Assembly: GCA_945919465.1 (NCBI GenBank)
Contig: CAMEJG010000022.1
Location: 1 to 34,692, forward strand
From: an uncultured Anaeroplasma sp.
Lineage (GTDB): Bacteria > Bacillota_I > Bacilli_A > Acholeplasmatales > Anaeroplasmataceae
Reading direction: 5' to 3'
DNA length: 34,692 nucleotides
Positions 24,304-30,102 of this stretch are shown in pieces. Numbering within the stretch: the first letter of the stretch is position 1; the number at the start of each line of letters is the position of its first letter. Below the pieces are notes generated by a model. It was not told the origin of the DNA, did no database searches, and was given only the letters and a program-made list of their open reading frames with translations. A program made the translations under genes and the position numbers.

Positions 24304-25659
24304 TTATTTTTCTGATGAATAATAGTAATATTCATCCTTTTTTTCTTTATAGGCTTTTGTTATTACAAGACCTATAATCTTAATACCAAGATTCTTTAAA
24401 GATCTAATTGATTCTTGAATATCCTTCTTTTTAGCATGATTTATTGCAACATTGTATACTATTCCATCAGCAAGCTTAGCAGCAACAAAAGAATCTGTTG
24501 TGATAACTGGAGCTGAATCTAGTAATACATAATCATATTCTGATTTTAATTCTTCTATTAAATCTTTAAGCTTCTTACTTTCTAAAACTACTAATGGATT
24601 TAATACATTTTGACCAATTGTAATTACATCAATACCTTCATCTGTATGTTTGATTATTTCATCTTTTTCCATTGTACCATCTAAATAATCAACTAATCCA
24701 TTTTCCTTTTGAAGATTAAATGCCTTATGAACACATGGTTTTCTTAAATCTAAGTCTATAAGAATTACCTTTTTCTTATTTAATACTAGTGAATATGCTA
24801 AATTAACACATACTGTAGATTTTAATTCATCTATTATTGTAGATGTAAATAAGATAGATTTATAAGGATTATCAAGATTAGAATACTTAATATTTGTAGC
24901 TATTTTATTATATGGTTCTAGGCTCTTTAAATCATTTTGAACTAAATGAACATCATTATCTATCTTATTCTTTTTATTATCAAATAATAATCCAATAACA
25001 TCTTCATTTATTGTAGCTTCAATTTCTTTTCTATCTTTATATTTATTGCTTAACAATTCAATGACAAATATAACAGCAACACCTAGTACAACACCTAATA
25101 CTAATGAAACAAGTAAATATAAGGTTTTATTAGGACTATTGTATGCAGCTTTATCTACAGTTGATGTTTGACGAACTGTAACATTAAATACTTTTATAGC
25201 ATCATTAATACCAGTTTGTTCTTCTAAGCTGTCACAAATTTCATTTGCTAGTAGAGCTGCTAAATTAGCATCCTTATTAACAACTGAAATAGTAAAGATA
25301 TATTTTGTGTTACTTGTTGATGTAGATACCATTTTATATAATGATTCCCATGAAATATTATGAGCTTCTGCAACTGGCTCTAGTACTGCTTTATCTGTTG
25401 CGTATGTAGCAACAGTTTCAACTATTTTTAATGAGTTTGTATAGTCAATATCAGTACCTATAGAACCTGGACCTTTATCTATTGCGACAATAACAGATGT
25501 TGTAGCTTTGTAGGTAGGTTTTACGATTACTAATGTATATATCATACCTAATACAAATACTGCTAAAGTAATAGATATTAATAGAATTAGATTCTTTTTT
25601 AGAATTCTAAAAATATCATTTAACGTAATTGAATTATCTTGCATATTATTTTTTTCCAT
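24304..25659 (-). CDS. Fused polysaccharide chain-length regulator and BY-type tyrosine kinase with atypical Walker A
   Basis: A 451-residue single-chain Wzz/Wzc-like protein. The Wzz domain has membrane helices at about 24-45 and 180-202 flanking an outside loop. The cytoplasmic BY-kinase domain follows from about residue 240: Walker A' ILIDLDLRKP at 299-308, Walker B YDYVLLDSAP near 375-384, and a C-terminal tyrosine cluster DEYYYYSSE at 443-450 for autophosphorylation. The P-loop reads TSTIIDELKST instead of the usual TSxxPGEGKST: Lys280-Ser-Thr remain, but both glycines and the proline are replaced. In Bacillota the two halves are usually separate proteins. It has its own promoter and terminator and lies 9 kb from the glycan cluster it presumably controls. 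Confidence 0.9.
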   Translation of the reverse strand: MEKNNMQDNSITLNDIFRILKKNLILLISITLAVFVLGMIYTLVIVKPTYKATTSVIVAIDKGPGSIGTDIDYTNSLKIVETVATYATDKAVLEPVAEAHNISWESLYKMVSTSTSNTKYIFTISVVNKDANLAALLANEICDSLEEQTGINDAIKVFNVTVRQTSTVDKAAYNSPNKTLYLLVSLVLGVVLGVAVIFVIELLSNKYKDRKEIEATINEDVIGLLFDNKKNKIDNDVHLVQNDLKSLEPYNKIATNIKYSNLDNPYKSILFTSTIIDELKSTVCVNLAYSLVLNKKKVILIDLDLRKPCVHKAFNLQKENGLVDYLDGTMEKDEIIKHTDEGIDVITIGQNVLNPLVVLESKKLKDLIEELKSEYDYVLLDSAPVITTDSFVAAKLADGIVYNVAINHAKKKDIQESIRSLKNLGIKIIGLVITKAYKEKKDEYYYYSSEK

Positions 25660-25682: not shown

Positions 25683-25711
25683 ATAATATATTTTTTTATC
25701 AATTTTGTCAA
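25683..25711 (-). promoter_or_regulatory. Sigma-A-type promoter of the BY-kinase gene
   Basis: A perfect TTGACA at 25706-25711 and TATTAT at 25683-25688, 17 bases apart, on the minus strand. The start codon at 25659 follows GGAGG. The 5' untranslated region would be only about 17-20 bases. Confidence 0.82.
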
Positions 25712-25788: not shown

Positions 25789-25986
25789 TTAGAATGGTTC
25801 ACCTTGCCAAACATCACCATCATCATAGTCCATAAGTGGACGTGTAGTTGATGAAGATGTCTTTTTGCTTGAAGATGATTTTATACTTGATTTAGTAGTA
25901 TTTGAATAGTATGGATCTGGATCATTATTACATGAAATTAATAATAATATTAATGAAAATCCAATGATTAATAAAAACTTTTTCAT
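25789..25986 (-). CDS. Small lipoprotein of unknown function
   Basis: A 65-residue product with a type II signal peptide: MKKFLLIIGFSLILLLISC, with lipobox LISC and Cys19 as the lipidated residue. The mature part is about 47 residues, with a Ser/Thr/Lys-rich low-complexity section (SSIKSSSSKKTSSSTT) and an acidic tail DYDDGDVWQGEPF. GAGG precedes the ATG. It follows the secreted-protein/small-peptide pair, with only a hairpin between, and could be expressed from the same c-di-GMP-controlled message by readthrough. No family recognised. Confidence 0.75.
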   Translation of the reverse strand: MKKFLLIIGFSLILLLISCNNDPDPYYSNTTKSSIKSSSSKKTSSSTTRPLMDYDDGDVWQGEPF

Positions 25987-26006
25987 ATATACCTCACTTA
26001 AAATAA

Positions 26007-26032
26007 TTAGGATGTCAAAATTGACATCCTAA
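26007..26032 (-). terminator. Perfect hairpin with weak T-tail after the 51-residue peptide gene
   Basis: TTAGGATGTCAA and TTGACATCCTAA form exact 12-base arms separated by two bases, followed on the minus strand by AATTATTTTAAG. The T-tail is interrupted, so this may be a leaky terminator that partly separates the small lipoprotein gene from the operon. The stem includes the stop codon of the peptide gene. Confidence 0.65.
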
Positions 26033-26184
26033 TAATATATTTTATAGATCTTGAGAATCACAGAATCACCACTTAAATCAAATGCTTCTGCAATTGCAGA
26101 TATAACATTTGAAGCAGCCATTATATCTTCTGTCTCTACTATTTCTAATTCAATAGTTGGTTTTACATAATTTTTCATATTCAT
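26029..26184 (-). CDS. 51-residue peptide translationally coupled to the secreted-protein frame
   Basis: The ATG at 26184 shares its A with the TAA that ends the extended secreted-protein frame (TAATG), and AAGGAG lies just before it. The product begins MNMKNYVKPTIELEIVETED and continues IMAASNVISAIAEAFDLSGD. This pattern (K-x-Y-x-K-P-x-I-E...E-x-x-D-I-x-x-x-S) recalls small orphan proteins widespread in gut Bacillota, whose function I do not know. There is no signal peptide. The tail KIYKIYY ends inside the hairpin at 26007-26032. Too short for most gene finders, but position and ribosome-binding site support it. Confidence 0.65.
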   Translation of the reverse strand: MNMKNYVKPTIELEIVETEDIMAASNVISAIAEAFDLSGDSVILKIYKIYY

Positions 26185-26186
26185 TA

Positions 26187-26369
26187 TTCTCCTTGAGCAA
26201 TTGTTGATGTAAATTCTGGCAATGTAATGTTTTCATGTGCTACTGTTTTTGATGAACCATCAGAAAATGTTATAACTAATTCAAGATTAGATAAAGATTT
26301 ACCTTTATATGCTTCTTTATTAATATTATTTAATGTATATACAGCATATAAAGTATTTTCTTTGGCAGA
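26187..26369 (-). pseudogene. In-frame continuation of the secreted protein beyond a TAG codon
   Basis: After the TAG at 26370-26372 the same frame stays open for 61 codons until TAA at 26184-26186. The conceptual product (SAKENTLYAVYTLNNINK, then YKGKSLSNLELVITFSDGSS, then NITLPEFTSTIAQGE) has the same Ser/Thr/Asn-rich beta-type composition as the upstream part. The next gene is coupled to its end by TAATG, not to the TAG. Both facts say the original gene ran to 26184. It is either a recent nonsense mutation, a sequencing error, or a readthrough site. Confidence 0.7.
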
Positions 26370-27113
26370 CTAATCACCAGTACTTGAATTTATTATACTC
26401 TTATATACATATGAAACATTACATACTCTTACTTCATCAGTTATAAATTTAAATGTAAATGCAATAGAAGCTATATTCTTATAATCGTCATATGATATAC
26501 CGTTTATTGTAGCAATAAATCTTAGTTTTGTACTATCAGCAGGTGTTGCTGCACTATATTGAGCTTTAAAGGATGCAGTTGCACCATCAGCAACATTTGT
26601 AACTACTAAATCTAAAATATTTGCATAATAAGCAGTAATAATAGTTGTTCCAGCTTGAATAATTATTGATTCAGTAGTTAATTCAGAAGAAGTCAAAGCA
26701 TAAGTTTTTGTAAACTCTTCACCTGTAGATGAAGAAGTATTTTTAATAGTTAAATCGTTAGACTTAGTATTATATGCAGTAAAAGTTAATCTTGTAATTT
26801 TATCTACTGTAAATGATATAGAAGTGTTATCATCTCTTAAGTGAAATTCATTTGTATAATTTTCTACAAGTGCTTTATTAGAAGATTCTAATTCAGTTCC
26901 TGCTGGACGATATCTATATTTTCCATTCACAACAAAAATACCAAAATTTTTATTGGAAGCAGTCACATTTTTATCTTTCGCTGATTCACTTGAAAACTCA
27001 TTCATTAGACTATATTTTTCTGTTAGATAAACTGCATTTACCCCAACTCCTACAACACTAAACGTAAACAATCCAATGAATGCAGCTATTAGTGCTTTAA
27101 ATTTGTTTTTCAT
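26370..27113 (-). CDS. Secreted surface protein under c-di-GMP riboswitch control, cut by an in-frame TAG
   Basis: A 247-residue product with a classical signal peptide: KNKFKALIAAFIGLFTFSVVG, likely cleaved after VNA near residue 28. The mature part is Ser/Thr/Asn-rich and predicted beta-strand. The end of the pre-TAG part, KLRFIATINGISYDDYKNIAS then IAFTFKF...VCNVSYVYKS, resembles a repeat often found in surface proteins of uncultured gut Bacillota. AAAAAAGGGGGA precedes the ATG. A TAG ends the frame, but coding continues for 61 more codons. No anchor motif or enzymatic residue is seen. Control by c-di-GMP suggests a role in attachment or biofilm. Confidence 0.8.
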   Translation of the reverse strand: MKNKFKALIAAFIGLFTFSVVGVGVNAVYLTEKYSLMNEFSSESAKDKNVTASNKNFGIFVVNGKYRYRPAGTELESSNKALVENYTNEFHLRDDNTSISFTVDKITRLTFTAYNTKSNDLTIKNTSSSTGEEFTKTYALTSSELTTESIIIQAGTTIITAYYANILDLVVTNVADGATASFKAQYSAATPADSTKLRFIATINGISYDDYKNIASIAFTFKFITDEVRVCNVSYVYKSIINSSTGD

Positions 27114-27167
27114 ATTATTTTCCCCCTTTTTTAATACGAATAAATAATTTTTTAATTTAATATTAAC

Positions 27168-27221
27168 AAAAAAATCTGCAATAAATTTTAATGACTGCGA
27201 AAATCATTAAATTTAAATTGC
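27168..27221 (-). terminator. Riboswitch expression-platform terminator
   Basis: On the minus strand GCAATTTAAATTTAATGA pairs with TCATTAAAATTTATTGC around the loop TTTTCGCAG, then AGATTTTTTTG follows. The first five bases of the stem (GCAAT) also close helix P1 of the c-di-GMP aptamer, so ligand binding should compete with the base of this terminator. Confidence 0.82.
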
Positions 27222-27298
27222 AGCTGGCTAACCTAACACTATATAGGTCCCTATAGTTTTGCGTCACTAAATTACACTAGCTTTGCTAATATTAAATT
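27217..27298 (-). ncRNA. Cyclic-di-GMP-I (GEMM) riboswitch aptamer
   Basis: On the minus strand the conserved elements appear in order: GCAAAGCTAGTG (P1 end and start of P2), GTGACGCAAAACTATAGGG (the GACGCAAA core and GGG), ACC with the P3 stem, and GGTTAGCCAGCTGC (the tetraloop-receptor/GCCAG segment and 3' P1). P1 can be drawn as ATT[A]GCA with TGCAAT. Class I aptamers of this type bind cyclic di-GMP. A terminator follows immediately and then the secreted-protein gene. Sharing of GCAAT between P1 and the terminator suggests an ON switch, which is inference. Confidence 0.88.
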
Positions 27299-27334
27299 AT
27301 TACGGAAAAATAGAAAACAGTTTCATTATTTCCT

Positions 27335-27364
27335 TATATAAATTATACCGTACCATTTTGTCAA
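27335..27364 (-). promoter_or_regulatory. Sigma-A-type promoter of the c-di-GMP riboswitch operon
   Basis: A perfect TTGACA at 27359-27364 with TATATA at 27335-27340, 18 bases apart, about 40 bases before the aptamer. A TATAAT hexamer also occurs closer to the -35 but at unsuitable spacing. Confidence 0.65.
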
Positions 27365-27445: not shown

Positions 27446-27472
27446 AAAAAAGCCTTAGAAAATATCTAAGAC
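27446..27472 (-). terminator. Rho-independent terminator of the spoVA operon
   Basis: GTCTTAGA and TCTAAGGC form an 8-pair stem (one G-T pair) with a short T-rich loop, followed by TTTTTTG on the minus strand, about 50 bases after spoVAE. Confidence 0.8.
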
Positions 27473-27519
27473 TATATAAATATCTAGTTAAAATAAATTG
27501 CTAGATTATAAATATTAAA

Positions 27520-27870
27520 TTATCTTTTAGGTTTAAAGAATATACCTAAGAATAATGATAAGAAAATAGTGAATGCTATACCAGGTGCAGTAGTATTATA
27601 AATTCCTTTAAAAATACCAATAAACCCTTCTTCTTTAGCACATTCAATAGCACTATCAACTAAAGAATGACCAAAACTAATAATTGGGAGTGTTGCGCCA
27701 ACACCACAATATTCAATTAGAGTATCATAAAAGCTTCCAAATCCAAATAAAGTACCTATTATTACAAATATTACAGTAACTTGTCCTACTGTTAATTTAA
27801 ATATAATTTTTATAAGCTCTGCCATTGCACAAATAAAACCACCAAGTAAAAATGCATATAAAAATATCAT
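27520..27870 (-). CDS. spoVAE: Stage V sporulation protein AE
   Basis: A 116-residue membrane protein with about three hydrophobic helices. The family signature is CGVGATLPIISFGHSLVDSA near residues 55-74, and it ends in the usual lysine-rich IFFKPKR. With SpoVAC it forms part of the inner-membrane channel that moves dipicolinic acid into the forespore and releases it on germination. Its ATG overlaps the spoVAD stop by 4 bases. It corresponds to the short SpoVAEb form. Confidence 0.93.
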   Translation of the reverse strand: MIFLYAFLLGGFICAMAELIKIIFKLTVGQVTVIFVIIGTLFGFGSFYDTLIEYCGVGATLPIISFGHSLVDSAIECAKEEGFIGIFKGIYNTTAPGIAFTIFLSLFLGIFFKPKR

Positions 27871-28844
27871 TTTACTACCTCCATTACAAATAAATGTGCT
27901 ATTGAAGGTATTGATTCTTTTTCTAAAATTATATTTGAATTTAGTAAAGCTCCTGTAGATACAACTAATACTTTATTAAATTTACCCTTTAGCATTTCTT
28001 TTTTTACATATGATAATACCACTCCACTAGAACAGCCCGGTCCACTACCTCCAGCATTTACCTTTTGTCTTTCAATATCATATATTAATAAACCACAATC
28101 CTTATAGTTATCTGAATAATGAAATTCTTTTTCTAATTCTTTTTTAACTATCTCATAACCATATTTAGATAAATCTCCTGTTAATATTAAATCAAAATCC
28201 TTTGGAGATTTTTTAGTTTTACTAAAATATTCTAATAATACCTCTATTGCTGCTGGTGCCATACATCTACCAAAATCAAGTGCATCACTAAATCCAAAAT
28301 CTATTACCTTACCAATTACTCCTTCTGTAATTCTTATTTGAGATTCTTCATTTGATAATATTGCAGCTGAAGCAATTGTTACTGTTTGAGTTTGAGTTTC
28401 TTCTTTTGGTCCTCCATACTCATTAGGGTATCTAAATTGTCTTTCTGCATTTTGAGTATTACTAGATGTAGTAACTAAAATATTAGAAGCTTTATTACTA
28501 TCAATTATAATTGATGAAATTATTACTTCTAGTGCAAAGGATGCACAAGCAGAATAAATATTAATTAATGGAATTTGAAAGCCTCTATAAGTATAGCTTG
28601 ATACAGCAAGCTGATTAGATAAATCAGCTGATATTGCAAGATCAAGCTTATTAATAGAAATATCATTTACTTCAATTAAAGAATCTATTGCTTCTTTTAA
28701 AGAATATATTTCATTTCTATTAAATGAAGCTTCATCAAATTTCATAATTCTATTAAAATATACCCCTAAAGGTCCTTCACCTTCAAGCTTACCAGATATT
28801 ACATATGAGGAGTTTAAATATACATTATTAAATTTAAGATACAT
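27867..28844 (-). CDS. spoVAD: Stage V sporulation protein AD (dipicolinate-binding, thiolase fold)
   Basis: A 325-residue protein with the family pattern: early GPLGVYF...ASFNRNEIYSLKEA, the pseudo-catalytic NIYSACASFALEV near residue 95, GRCMAPAAIEVL near 200 and AGGSGPGCSSGVVLSYV near 270. SpoVAD resembles thiolases/KAS enzymes but serves in dipicolinic acid binding and uptake. One base separates spoVAC from it and it overlaps spoVAE, the conserved AC-AD-AE order. Confidence 0.95.
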   Translation of the reverse strand: MYLKFNNVYLNSSYVISGKLEGEGPLGVYFNRIMKFDEASFNRNEIYSLKEAIDSLIEVNDISINKLDLAISADLSNQLAVSSYTYRGFQIPLINIYSACASFALEVIISSIIIDSNKASNILVTTSSNTQNAERQFRYPNEYGGPKEETQTQTVTIASAAILSNEESQIRITEGVIGKVIDFGFSDALDFGRCMAPAAIEVLLEYFSKTKKSPKDFDLILTGDLSKYGYEIVKKELEKEFHYSDNYKDCGLLIYDIERQKVNAGGSGPGCSSGVVLSYVKKEMLKGKFNKVLVVSTGALLNSNIILEKESIPSIAHLFVMEVVK

Positions 28845-28845
28845 A

Positions 28846-29283
28846 TTATACTACCTCTATAAAATATCTAATTGTAGCTACAATAATAGCCATAACAGTA
28901 CCAAAGACAATTACACTTCCAGCAAGCTTAAGAGTATTAGCACCCACACCAAGGATAATACCCTCACTACGATATTCCATCGCACTAGAAACAGAACTAT
29001 TACAAAACCCTGTAATAGGTATTGCAAGACCCATTCTTGCAATACTCTCTAATTCATCATAAATTCCAAATGCAGTTAATACTCCACTTAAGAAAATCAT
29101 TATTAAGGAAACATACATATATGCATCCTTTTTATCTACATAATTATTAATTATTGTAAATAAAAATTGTCCAAATAAGCATAATAAGCCTCCAAAAATA
29201 AAAGAATAAATTATTCCTTTTATTTTATTTGTATTATCCTTAACCTTTGTTATTTCTTTATAATATTCTAATTTATGTTCCAT
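28846..29283 (-). CDS. spoVAC: Stage V sporulation protein AC
   Basis: A 145-residue membrane protein with four hydrophobic segments (about 25-45, 55-75, 80-100 and 118-140). The characteristic central part is LGLAIPITGFCNSSVSSAMEYRSEGIILGVG near residues 85-115 (split here: MGLAIPITGFCNS, then AMEYRSEGIILG). Known SpoVAC behaves as a mechanosensitive channel in dipicolinate release. A GAGG site and a forespore-type promoter lie upstream. SpoVAA and SpoVAB are absent, as in many Clostridia. Confidence 0.93.
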   Translation of the reverse strand: MEHKLEYYKEITKVKDNTNKIKGIIYSFIFGGLLCLFGQFLFTIINNYVDKKDAYMYVSLIMIFLSGVLTAFGIYDELESIARMGLAIPITGFCNSSVSSAMEYRSEGIILGVGANTLKLAGSVIVFGTVMAIIVATIRYFIEVV

Positions 29284-29299
29284 ACTATCGCCTCAGGTA

Positions 29300-29331
29300 T
29301 AGTATGGTATATTTTTAAATTAATTATTACA
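29300..29331 (-). promoter_or_regulatory. Putative sigma-G/sigma-F (forespore) promoter of spoVAC-AD-AE
   Basis: CATACTA at 29300-29306 matches the forespore -10 pattern CATnnTA exactly, and TGTAATA at 29325-29331 resembles the TGAATA-type -35, with an 18-base spacer. It lies in the 52-base gap between spoIIAB and spoVAC, where the known spoVA operon has its sigma-G promoter. Confidence 0.55.
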
Positions 29332-29335
29332 AATA

Positions 29336-29752
29336 TTACCAATTTTTTTCAATATGAAGCTTAGTACCACAATTTACTTTACTTTCAATTTCTAAATAAT
29401 CAGAAAACAATTCCATTATAGTAAAGCCTAAGCCACTTCTTTCCTCATCAGCCTTTGATGAGTAAAGGGGCTCTTTGGCTTTTTCTATATCAGGTATACC
29501 TTTTCCTTTATCAATAATATCAATACTTATTTTTTCTGGAGTAATTTCAATATTTAAATCTACATATTCATTTTCTCTATTATCATAACCATGTACAATA
29601 GCATTTGTAACTGCTTCACTAACAACAGTTTTTAATTCATTAATAAATGTAATTGTAGGATTATTTTCAATTAATAAAGCTCCAAGCATATTTCTTATTG
29701 CTGCTATATTACATCTTTTTGACAAGAATGTCATTTTGATTATATTATCCAT
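29336..29752 (-). CDS. spoIIAB: Anti-sigma-F factor and serine kinase
   Basis: A GHKL-type kinase of 138 residues. The N-box EAVTNAIVHGY holds Glu46 and Asn50, the G1 box is DKGKGIPD at 81-88, and the G2 box is RSGLGFTIM at 106-114. SpoIIAB binds sigma-F and phosphorylates SpoIIAA. I use the ATG at 29752, which shares its A-T with the SpoIIAA stop (TAATG) and follows GGGGG; the longer frame lies inside spoIIAA. Its usual partner gene, sigF, does not follow; spoVAC does. Confidence 0.95.
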   Translation of the reverse strand: MDNIIKMTFLSKRCNIAAIRNMLGALLIENNPTITFINELKTVVSEAVTNAIVHGYDNRENEYVDLNIEITPEKISIDIIDKGKGIPDIEKAKEPLYSSKADEERSGLGFTIMELFSDYLEIESKVNCGTKLHIEKNW

Positions 29753-30102
29753 TAATATCCCCCTAATGCGTTTATACAAACCTCTTCATTTTCTCTAATC
29801 ATACATATTTTAGTTAATCCAGAAAGCATAATTATTCTTTCTATCTTGGGATTAATAGAAACTATAGAGATATCTCCATAATTTCTTTTTAATTGATGAT
29901 ATCTACCAATAATAAAGCCAATACCAGATGAATCTAAGAAATTAAGCTCATTAACATTAATAATTAAATGCTTAATTTTATAATCATCAATATATTTTGA
30001 GATTTTCATTCTCATATCAGAAACTGTTACATCATCTAATTCCCCCTTTAATCTTAATATTAAATAATTCTTTTTAATATAAACTCCAACTGTTAGTCCC
30101 AA
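29752..30102 (-). CDS. spoIIAA: Anti-sigma-F factor antagonist
   Basis: A STAS-domain protein of 116 residues. ELNFLDSSGIGFIIGRY contains the phosphorylated serine (Ser58 in DSSG). Unphosphorylated SpoIIAA frees sigma-F from SpoIIAB in the forespore. The start is a TTG preceded by GGTGAT, the same start type seen in glmM; no ATG fits the family N-terminus. The stop overlaps the spoIIAB start. A Spo0A-type box lies 49 bases upstream. Confidence 0.94.
   Translation of the reverse strand: MGLTVGVYIKKNYLILRLKGELDDVTVSDMRMKISKYIDDYKIKHLIINVNELNFLDSSGIGFIIGRYHQLKRNYGDISIVSINPKIERIIMLSGLTKICMIRENEEVCINALGGY

Follow-up and report, generated by a model that had tools for sequence, protein, structure and literature searches.

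Does the riboswitch at this locus tie a second messenger to the make-up of the cell surface, and is the copy that we see here in working order? The locus lies in a stretch of 34,692 nucleotides (the window), contig C22 of genome G000, a 2.10-Mb draft in 89 contigs that is 97.7% complete. At odds of about two in three, we read it as a c-di-GMP-I ON switch over the genes for a surface protein, a small protein that we call the KP-microprotein and a lipoprotein. The genome carries this unit as two paralogous copies, the one on contig C46 intact and the one in the window probably impaired. Computation gives the aptamer match, the terminator that overlaps it, the recurrence of the module and the lesions seen on comparison with the paralogue and homologues.

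When the window was searched with cmscan, RF01051 (c-di-GMP-I) was the sole RNA family found; the reverse-strand match at 27216-27297 scored 46.3 bits (E 3.9e-6), well clear of the required 35 (gathering score), and covered the full length of the model, positions 1-87. The riboswitch is real, and the class I aptamer of the original prediction is borne out by this search. In the RF01051 alignment the base equivalent to Vc2 C92 is a C and the GACGCAAA junction is present, while the position of Vc2 G20 is taken by an A and not by the G typical of c-di-GMP selectivity (the Vc2 numbering is the one that we take to apply), a variant overlooked in the original prediction. The same A occurs in the C46 aptamer and in another on contig C2, and 20 of 99 related aptamers have it. 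As the family tolerates it (Bc2, PMC4933901), this base bears on ligand preference and not on RF01051 membership.

An intrinsic terminator does stand behind the aptamer, as had been claimed, with a hairpin of -15.2 kcal/mol and a z score of -4.4 against dinucleotide shuffles. The GCAAT said to be common to the two elements is there as well: the terminator 5′ arm, CUGCAAU (27217-27223), is the 3′ end of the aptamer, including the predicted ligand-pairing C. The C46 terminator is built in the same way, its 5′ arm likewise using the aptamer 3′ strand and this C. In an energy comparison that ignores the ligand and co-transcriptional folding, hairpins using the aptamer 3′ strand reach -13.9 kcal/mol in the window and -17.0 kcal/mol in C46, against -0.9 and -7.0 kcal/mol for the best separate hairpins. 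Because they share this strand, aptamer and terminator are mutually exclusive, and we predict a transcriptional ON switch, so that ligand-dependent readthrough stands as a prediction.

Without ligand, the aptamer 3′ strand with its ligand-pairing C would fold into the terminator and transcription would stop at 27168-27174. With c-di-GMP bound, the aptamer would hold this strand, the terminator would be blocked, and RNA polymerase would read into the surface protein and KP-microprotein genes and then pass a second, leaky terminator into the lipoprotein gene. Since that second terminator would be leaky, the surface protein and KP-microprotein would be made in excess over the lipoprotein. Of the 31 riboswitches that precede another group of membrane-anchored proteins, 28 classify as ON. 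Three of the eight riboswitches associated with the microprotein, L190, L192 and L201, have no overlapping terminator and a fourth, L191, has a weak one, so the ON direction is not universal for the KP module. We also observed that GUUAAUAUUAAAUU, located after the terminator U-tract (about 27153-27170), shows near-complementarity to the 5′ strand of the aptamer (about 27285-27297), and does so in C46 too; this pairing could trap the aptamer in the read-through RNA.

Features of the riboswitch unit and its downstream neighbour (positions in the window)
Feature	Position	Strand	Details
Promoter hexamers	27342..27364	-	TTGACA (27359-27364), TATAAT (27342-27347); 11-nt spacer
c-di-GMP-I (GEMM-I) aptamer	27216..27297	-	RF01051 46.3 bits; A at 27287, C at 27220
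Intrinsic terminator	27168..27223	-	hairpin 27176-27223, U-tract 27168-27174 (U7); z -4.4
Secreted surface protein ORF	26370..27113	-	247 aa; ends at in-frame TAG (26370-26372)
Surface-protein frame continued past TAG	26187..26369	-	61 codons; second half of conserved Ig/FnIII-like C-terminal domain
KP-microprotein	26029..26184	-	51 aa; family start probably second Met, MKNYVKPTIELEIVETEDIMAAS...
Mid-operon hairpin before the lipoprotein ORF; probably a leaky terminator	26006..26033	-	z -5.9
Small Ser/Thr-rich lipoprotein	25789..25986	-	65 aa; lipobox LISC, C-terminal DDGDVW; recurrent module partner
BY-kinase / Wzz-type polysaccharide co-polymerase, separate unit likely	24304..25659	-	promoter-like site 25683-25711

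Cell-surface proteins had been named as the targets of the riboswitch, and the unit does contain ORFs for a secreted protein and, beyond the hairpin, for the small lipoprotein. Like the ORF of the 51-residue peptide, the terminator and the hairpin, they stand at or close to the positions first given. What had been overlooked in the surface-protein ORF is the in-frame TAG, past which a further 61 codons can be read in frame. In alignments these codons match the C-terminal domain of homologues, and over residues 79-306 there is 38% identity to a homologue without the stop (in G012). The TAG falls inside a predicted Ig/FnIII-like domain (residues 173-302). Folded alone, the surface protein gave a pLDDT of 43, and a structure prediction with nine sequences was usable for residues ~173-302 only; this part has Ig/FnIII-like structural neighbours (VIA Z 8.4 or less) and Foldseek hits with low TM-scores, a resemblance that may mean only a common beta-sandwich. 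Recoding of TAG was considered and rejected: it is an ordinary stop, ending 5 of the 37 genes in the window including the surface-protein gene. At L204 (reverse-complement 1048-1131) another surface-protein gene is broken and encodes a peptide, MCVRDS, that resembles a translated sequencing adapter; this one is probably an assembly artefact.

The leader of the window copy is 87% identical to that of C46, with a 7-nt gap between -35 and -10, likewise overlooked in the original prediction, that leaves TTGACA-11-TATAAT where C46 has TTGACA-18-TATAAT. The best promoter match with 16-18-nt spacing is 8/12 in the window and 12/12 in C46, and 75 of 98 related sites reach at least 10/12 at that spacing. 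The shortened spacer and the TAG are probably two lesions, and because of them the draft sequence suggests that the window copy is impaired, with a weak promoter and a truncated surface protein, and that C46 is the intact, working one. We think it somewhat unlikely that the window copy is instead fully functional, driven by another promoter and with a TAG that is an assembly or strain error or a 247-aa protein that works as it is. In its favour, neither the microprotein nor the lipoprotein frame is broken, the microprotein gene possesses an AAGGAG of its own, and aptamer and terminator show good preservation. In a draft of 89 contigs, the TAG could indeed be an assembly or strain-level variant. 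TTGAC-11-TATAAT is found in two related leaders as well, with TTGATT-16-TATAAT as an alternative, and AT-rich sequence of this kind gives weak alternative promoters. The low spaced-promoter score relative to C46 and to most related sites speaks against full function, however, as does the loss through the TAG of the final strands from a domain that the homologues conserve. An impaired window copy beside an intact C46 copy is therefore the reading that we keep.

The 51-residue peptide, described in the original prediction as an orphan, is not one: it belongs to a genus- and family-wide family of 38-55 aa with nine invariant residues among seven members, a conserved N-terminal part of 25 residues and a variable C-terminal part. 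At E 0.01, 31 of 100 relatives have it, though a few of the matches are weak; at E 1e-4 it turned up in 9 genomes of a class-wide sample of 296. Its gene follows that of a secreted protein in nearly all loci read and often precedes that of a small Ser/Thr-rich lipoprotein, and the set of surface protein, KP-microprotein and lipoprotein genes recurs across the genus. For eight copies a c-di-GMP-I aptamer stands no more than 3 kb upstream (the riboswitches were confirmed), where random placement would give 0.16; elsewhere the family occurs without a riboswitch, on which the module therefore does not depend. The leaky-looking hairpin expected before the lipoprotein is present in the window as a 12-bp perfect stem with a weak T tail (z -5.9 against dinucleotide shuffles). 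A hairpin occurs at the equivalent place in all six lipoprotein-containing modules checked (z -2.7 to -5.9), mostly with different stems and usually followed by a U-rich stretch. This conservation of position supports a leaky internal terminator, with probable readthrough. In C46 the module is followed by a CotH kinase-domain lipoprotein (PF08757; L012:744-2606, reverse strand).

It is very unlikely, in our view, that the KP-microprotein is the precursor of a ribosomally made and modified peptide (RiPP). A conserved N-terminal part of 25 residues ahead of a variable part would suit such a precursor, and its YxKPxI start resembles what we take to be the YxxPxL leader of lasso peptides. The microprotein is regularly paired with surface-protein genes and not with modification enzymes, however, and it has no Pfam or NCBIfam match. 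A lasso-peptide precursor in particular was rejected, as the B2 protease (PF13471) has 0 matches in the genome and is above cut-off in 0 of 60 relatives.

The A at position 20 raises the other question of identity, namely whether these aptamers sense 3′,3′-cGAMP and not c-di-GMP, as GEMM-Ib riboswitches do; it could change which ligand is preferred. This position-20 base of GEMM-Ib is common to the aptamers of the window, C46 and C2, and in Geobacter, where the equivalent base sets cGAMP selectivity, it alone switches Gmet_0970 from cGAMP to c-di-GMP selectivity (PMC6456294). Yet the base has been termed a selectivity factor and not a hard filter (PMC9262584), and Bc2 of B. thuringiensis responds to c-di-GMP with an A at its predicted G-alpha base (PMC4933901). 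Nor was the Ser of Hypr enzymes found at the PleD D344 position in any of the nine readable GGDEF domains of the genome with an intact signature, all of which have Asp (degenerate domains were left out of this count). Given this lack of a Hypr signature and the response of Bc2, c-di-GMP is the likelier ligand of the window aptamer, and sensing of cGAMP is a reading to which we attach little likelihood.

Taken as a sensor, the riboswitch is of a known kind and its mechanism ordinary; the microprotein module is the interesting part. An A at position 20 occurs in 6 of 8 module riboswitches and in 14 of 91 others (Fisher 7e-4), which is a lead only, because the sites are not independent in phylogeny and the first 30 loci had been those with the best scores. 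A speculative extension, to which we would not give good odds, is that the secreted Ig-like protein, the cytoplasmic KP-microprotein, the leaky terminator and the acidic-Trp lipoprotein form an undescribed surface-display module with the microprotein as dedicated partner. This module would have been captured repeatedly by A20 riboswitches acting as lower-affinity sensors, so that it would be expressed only when c-di-GMP is high. Because the microprotein family recurs and its genomic partner is consistent, its function becomes testable.

One of the closest known systems is Bc2, a class I riboswitch experimentally proven to be an ON switch upstream of cap, which encodes a collagen adhesion protein. 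Within the part of the report drawn on (PMC4933901), Bc2 and the window riboswitch have in common a class I aptamer with an A at the predicted G-alpha contact, an intrinsic terminator and a surface protein target. The surface protein differs, the ligand and ON direction measured for Bc2 are predicted for the window, and the KP-microprotein and lipoprotein have no counterpart mentioned in that part of the report. The pilM GEMM-I riboswitch of Geobacter metallireducens is also an ON switch whose terminator sequesters the ligand-pairing C, as the window terminator is predicted to do; it senses cGAMP, however, and a Hypr GGDEF cyclase operates in Geobacter (PMC9262584), while none was detected in the genome of the window. 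The network of Clostridioides difficile likewise has many riboswitches per genome with surface adhesins among the targets, but its functional class I riboswitches are all OFF and its adhesins are on class II ON switches, whereas class I is predicted to be ON here (PMC11477304, PMC6366702). With this locus, control of surface proteins by c-di-GMP riboswitches reaches a genus represented here by draft genomes alone, and we infer a biofilm or adhesion role for the unit.

The spore genes and the BY-kinase invoked as context are both adjacent to the unit, and neither appears to be part of it. Between the unit and the spore genes, which are upstream and on the same strand, come a terminator-like site (27451-27473) and the -35 and -10 of the riboswitch itself; at 27520-30102 we recognized SpoVAE, SpoVAD, SpoVAC and SpoIIAB/SpoIIAA-like genes, by eye except for SpoVAD (PF07451). 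SpoVAD is patchy: of 27 genomes in the genus only 5 have it. It is thus neither general there nor tied to the module, and the spore link comes down to proximity. The BY-kinase has a strong promoter match of its own and is likely a separate unit. It follows the KP module also in G015 and G006, both with the riboswitch, and in G023, without it, so this neighbourhood is recurrent; it fits, without proving, a link to surface polysaccharide.

The genome contains seven RF01051 matches, the window one among them and all above the gathering score, and the c-di-GMP enzymes on which the original prediction had staked itself are present (16 GGDEF and 8 EAL matches). With the riboswitch and its surface targets, they uphold, as a prediction, the proposed tie between second-messenger signalling and cell-surface composition. 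The other riboswitches of the genome lie upstream of secreted or membrane-anchored proteins (C38, C9 twice, C39, C46) and, on C2 (L011:11048-11123), directly upstream of a GGDEF gene.

In a wider survey of 99 aptamers in related genomes, eight precede GGDEF genes, assigned by hmmscan in four cases and by motif in the others (L011, L067, L210, L211, L216, L229, L237, L240), and at least nine precede EAL genes (L206, L207, L209, L212, L222, L225, L228, L241, L242). Class I riboswitches before c-di-GMP cyclases and phosphodiesterases have been called rare (PMC6366702), against which this survey shows both. Among the seven GGDEF-upstream platforms assigned by the motif test, six are OFF-like and one is unclassified, with terminators mostly separate from the aptamer. 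The eighth (L229) is classified as ON at -14.0 kcal/mol, with a separate hairpin nearly as stable (-11.9 kcal/mol). This suggests that c-di-GMP may switch its own synthesis off, a possible negative feedback, while switching surface proteins on. Three leaders (L205, L058 and L061) carry two or three c-di-GMP-I aptamers in tandem.
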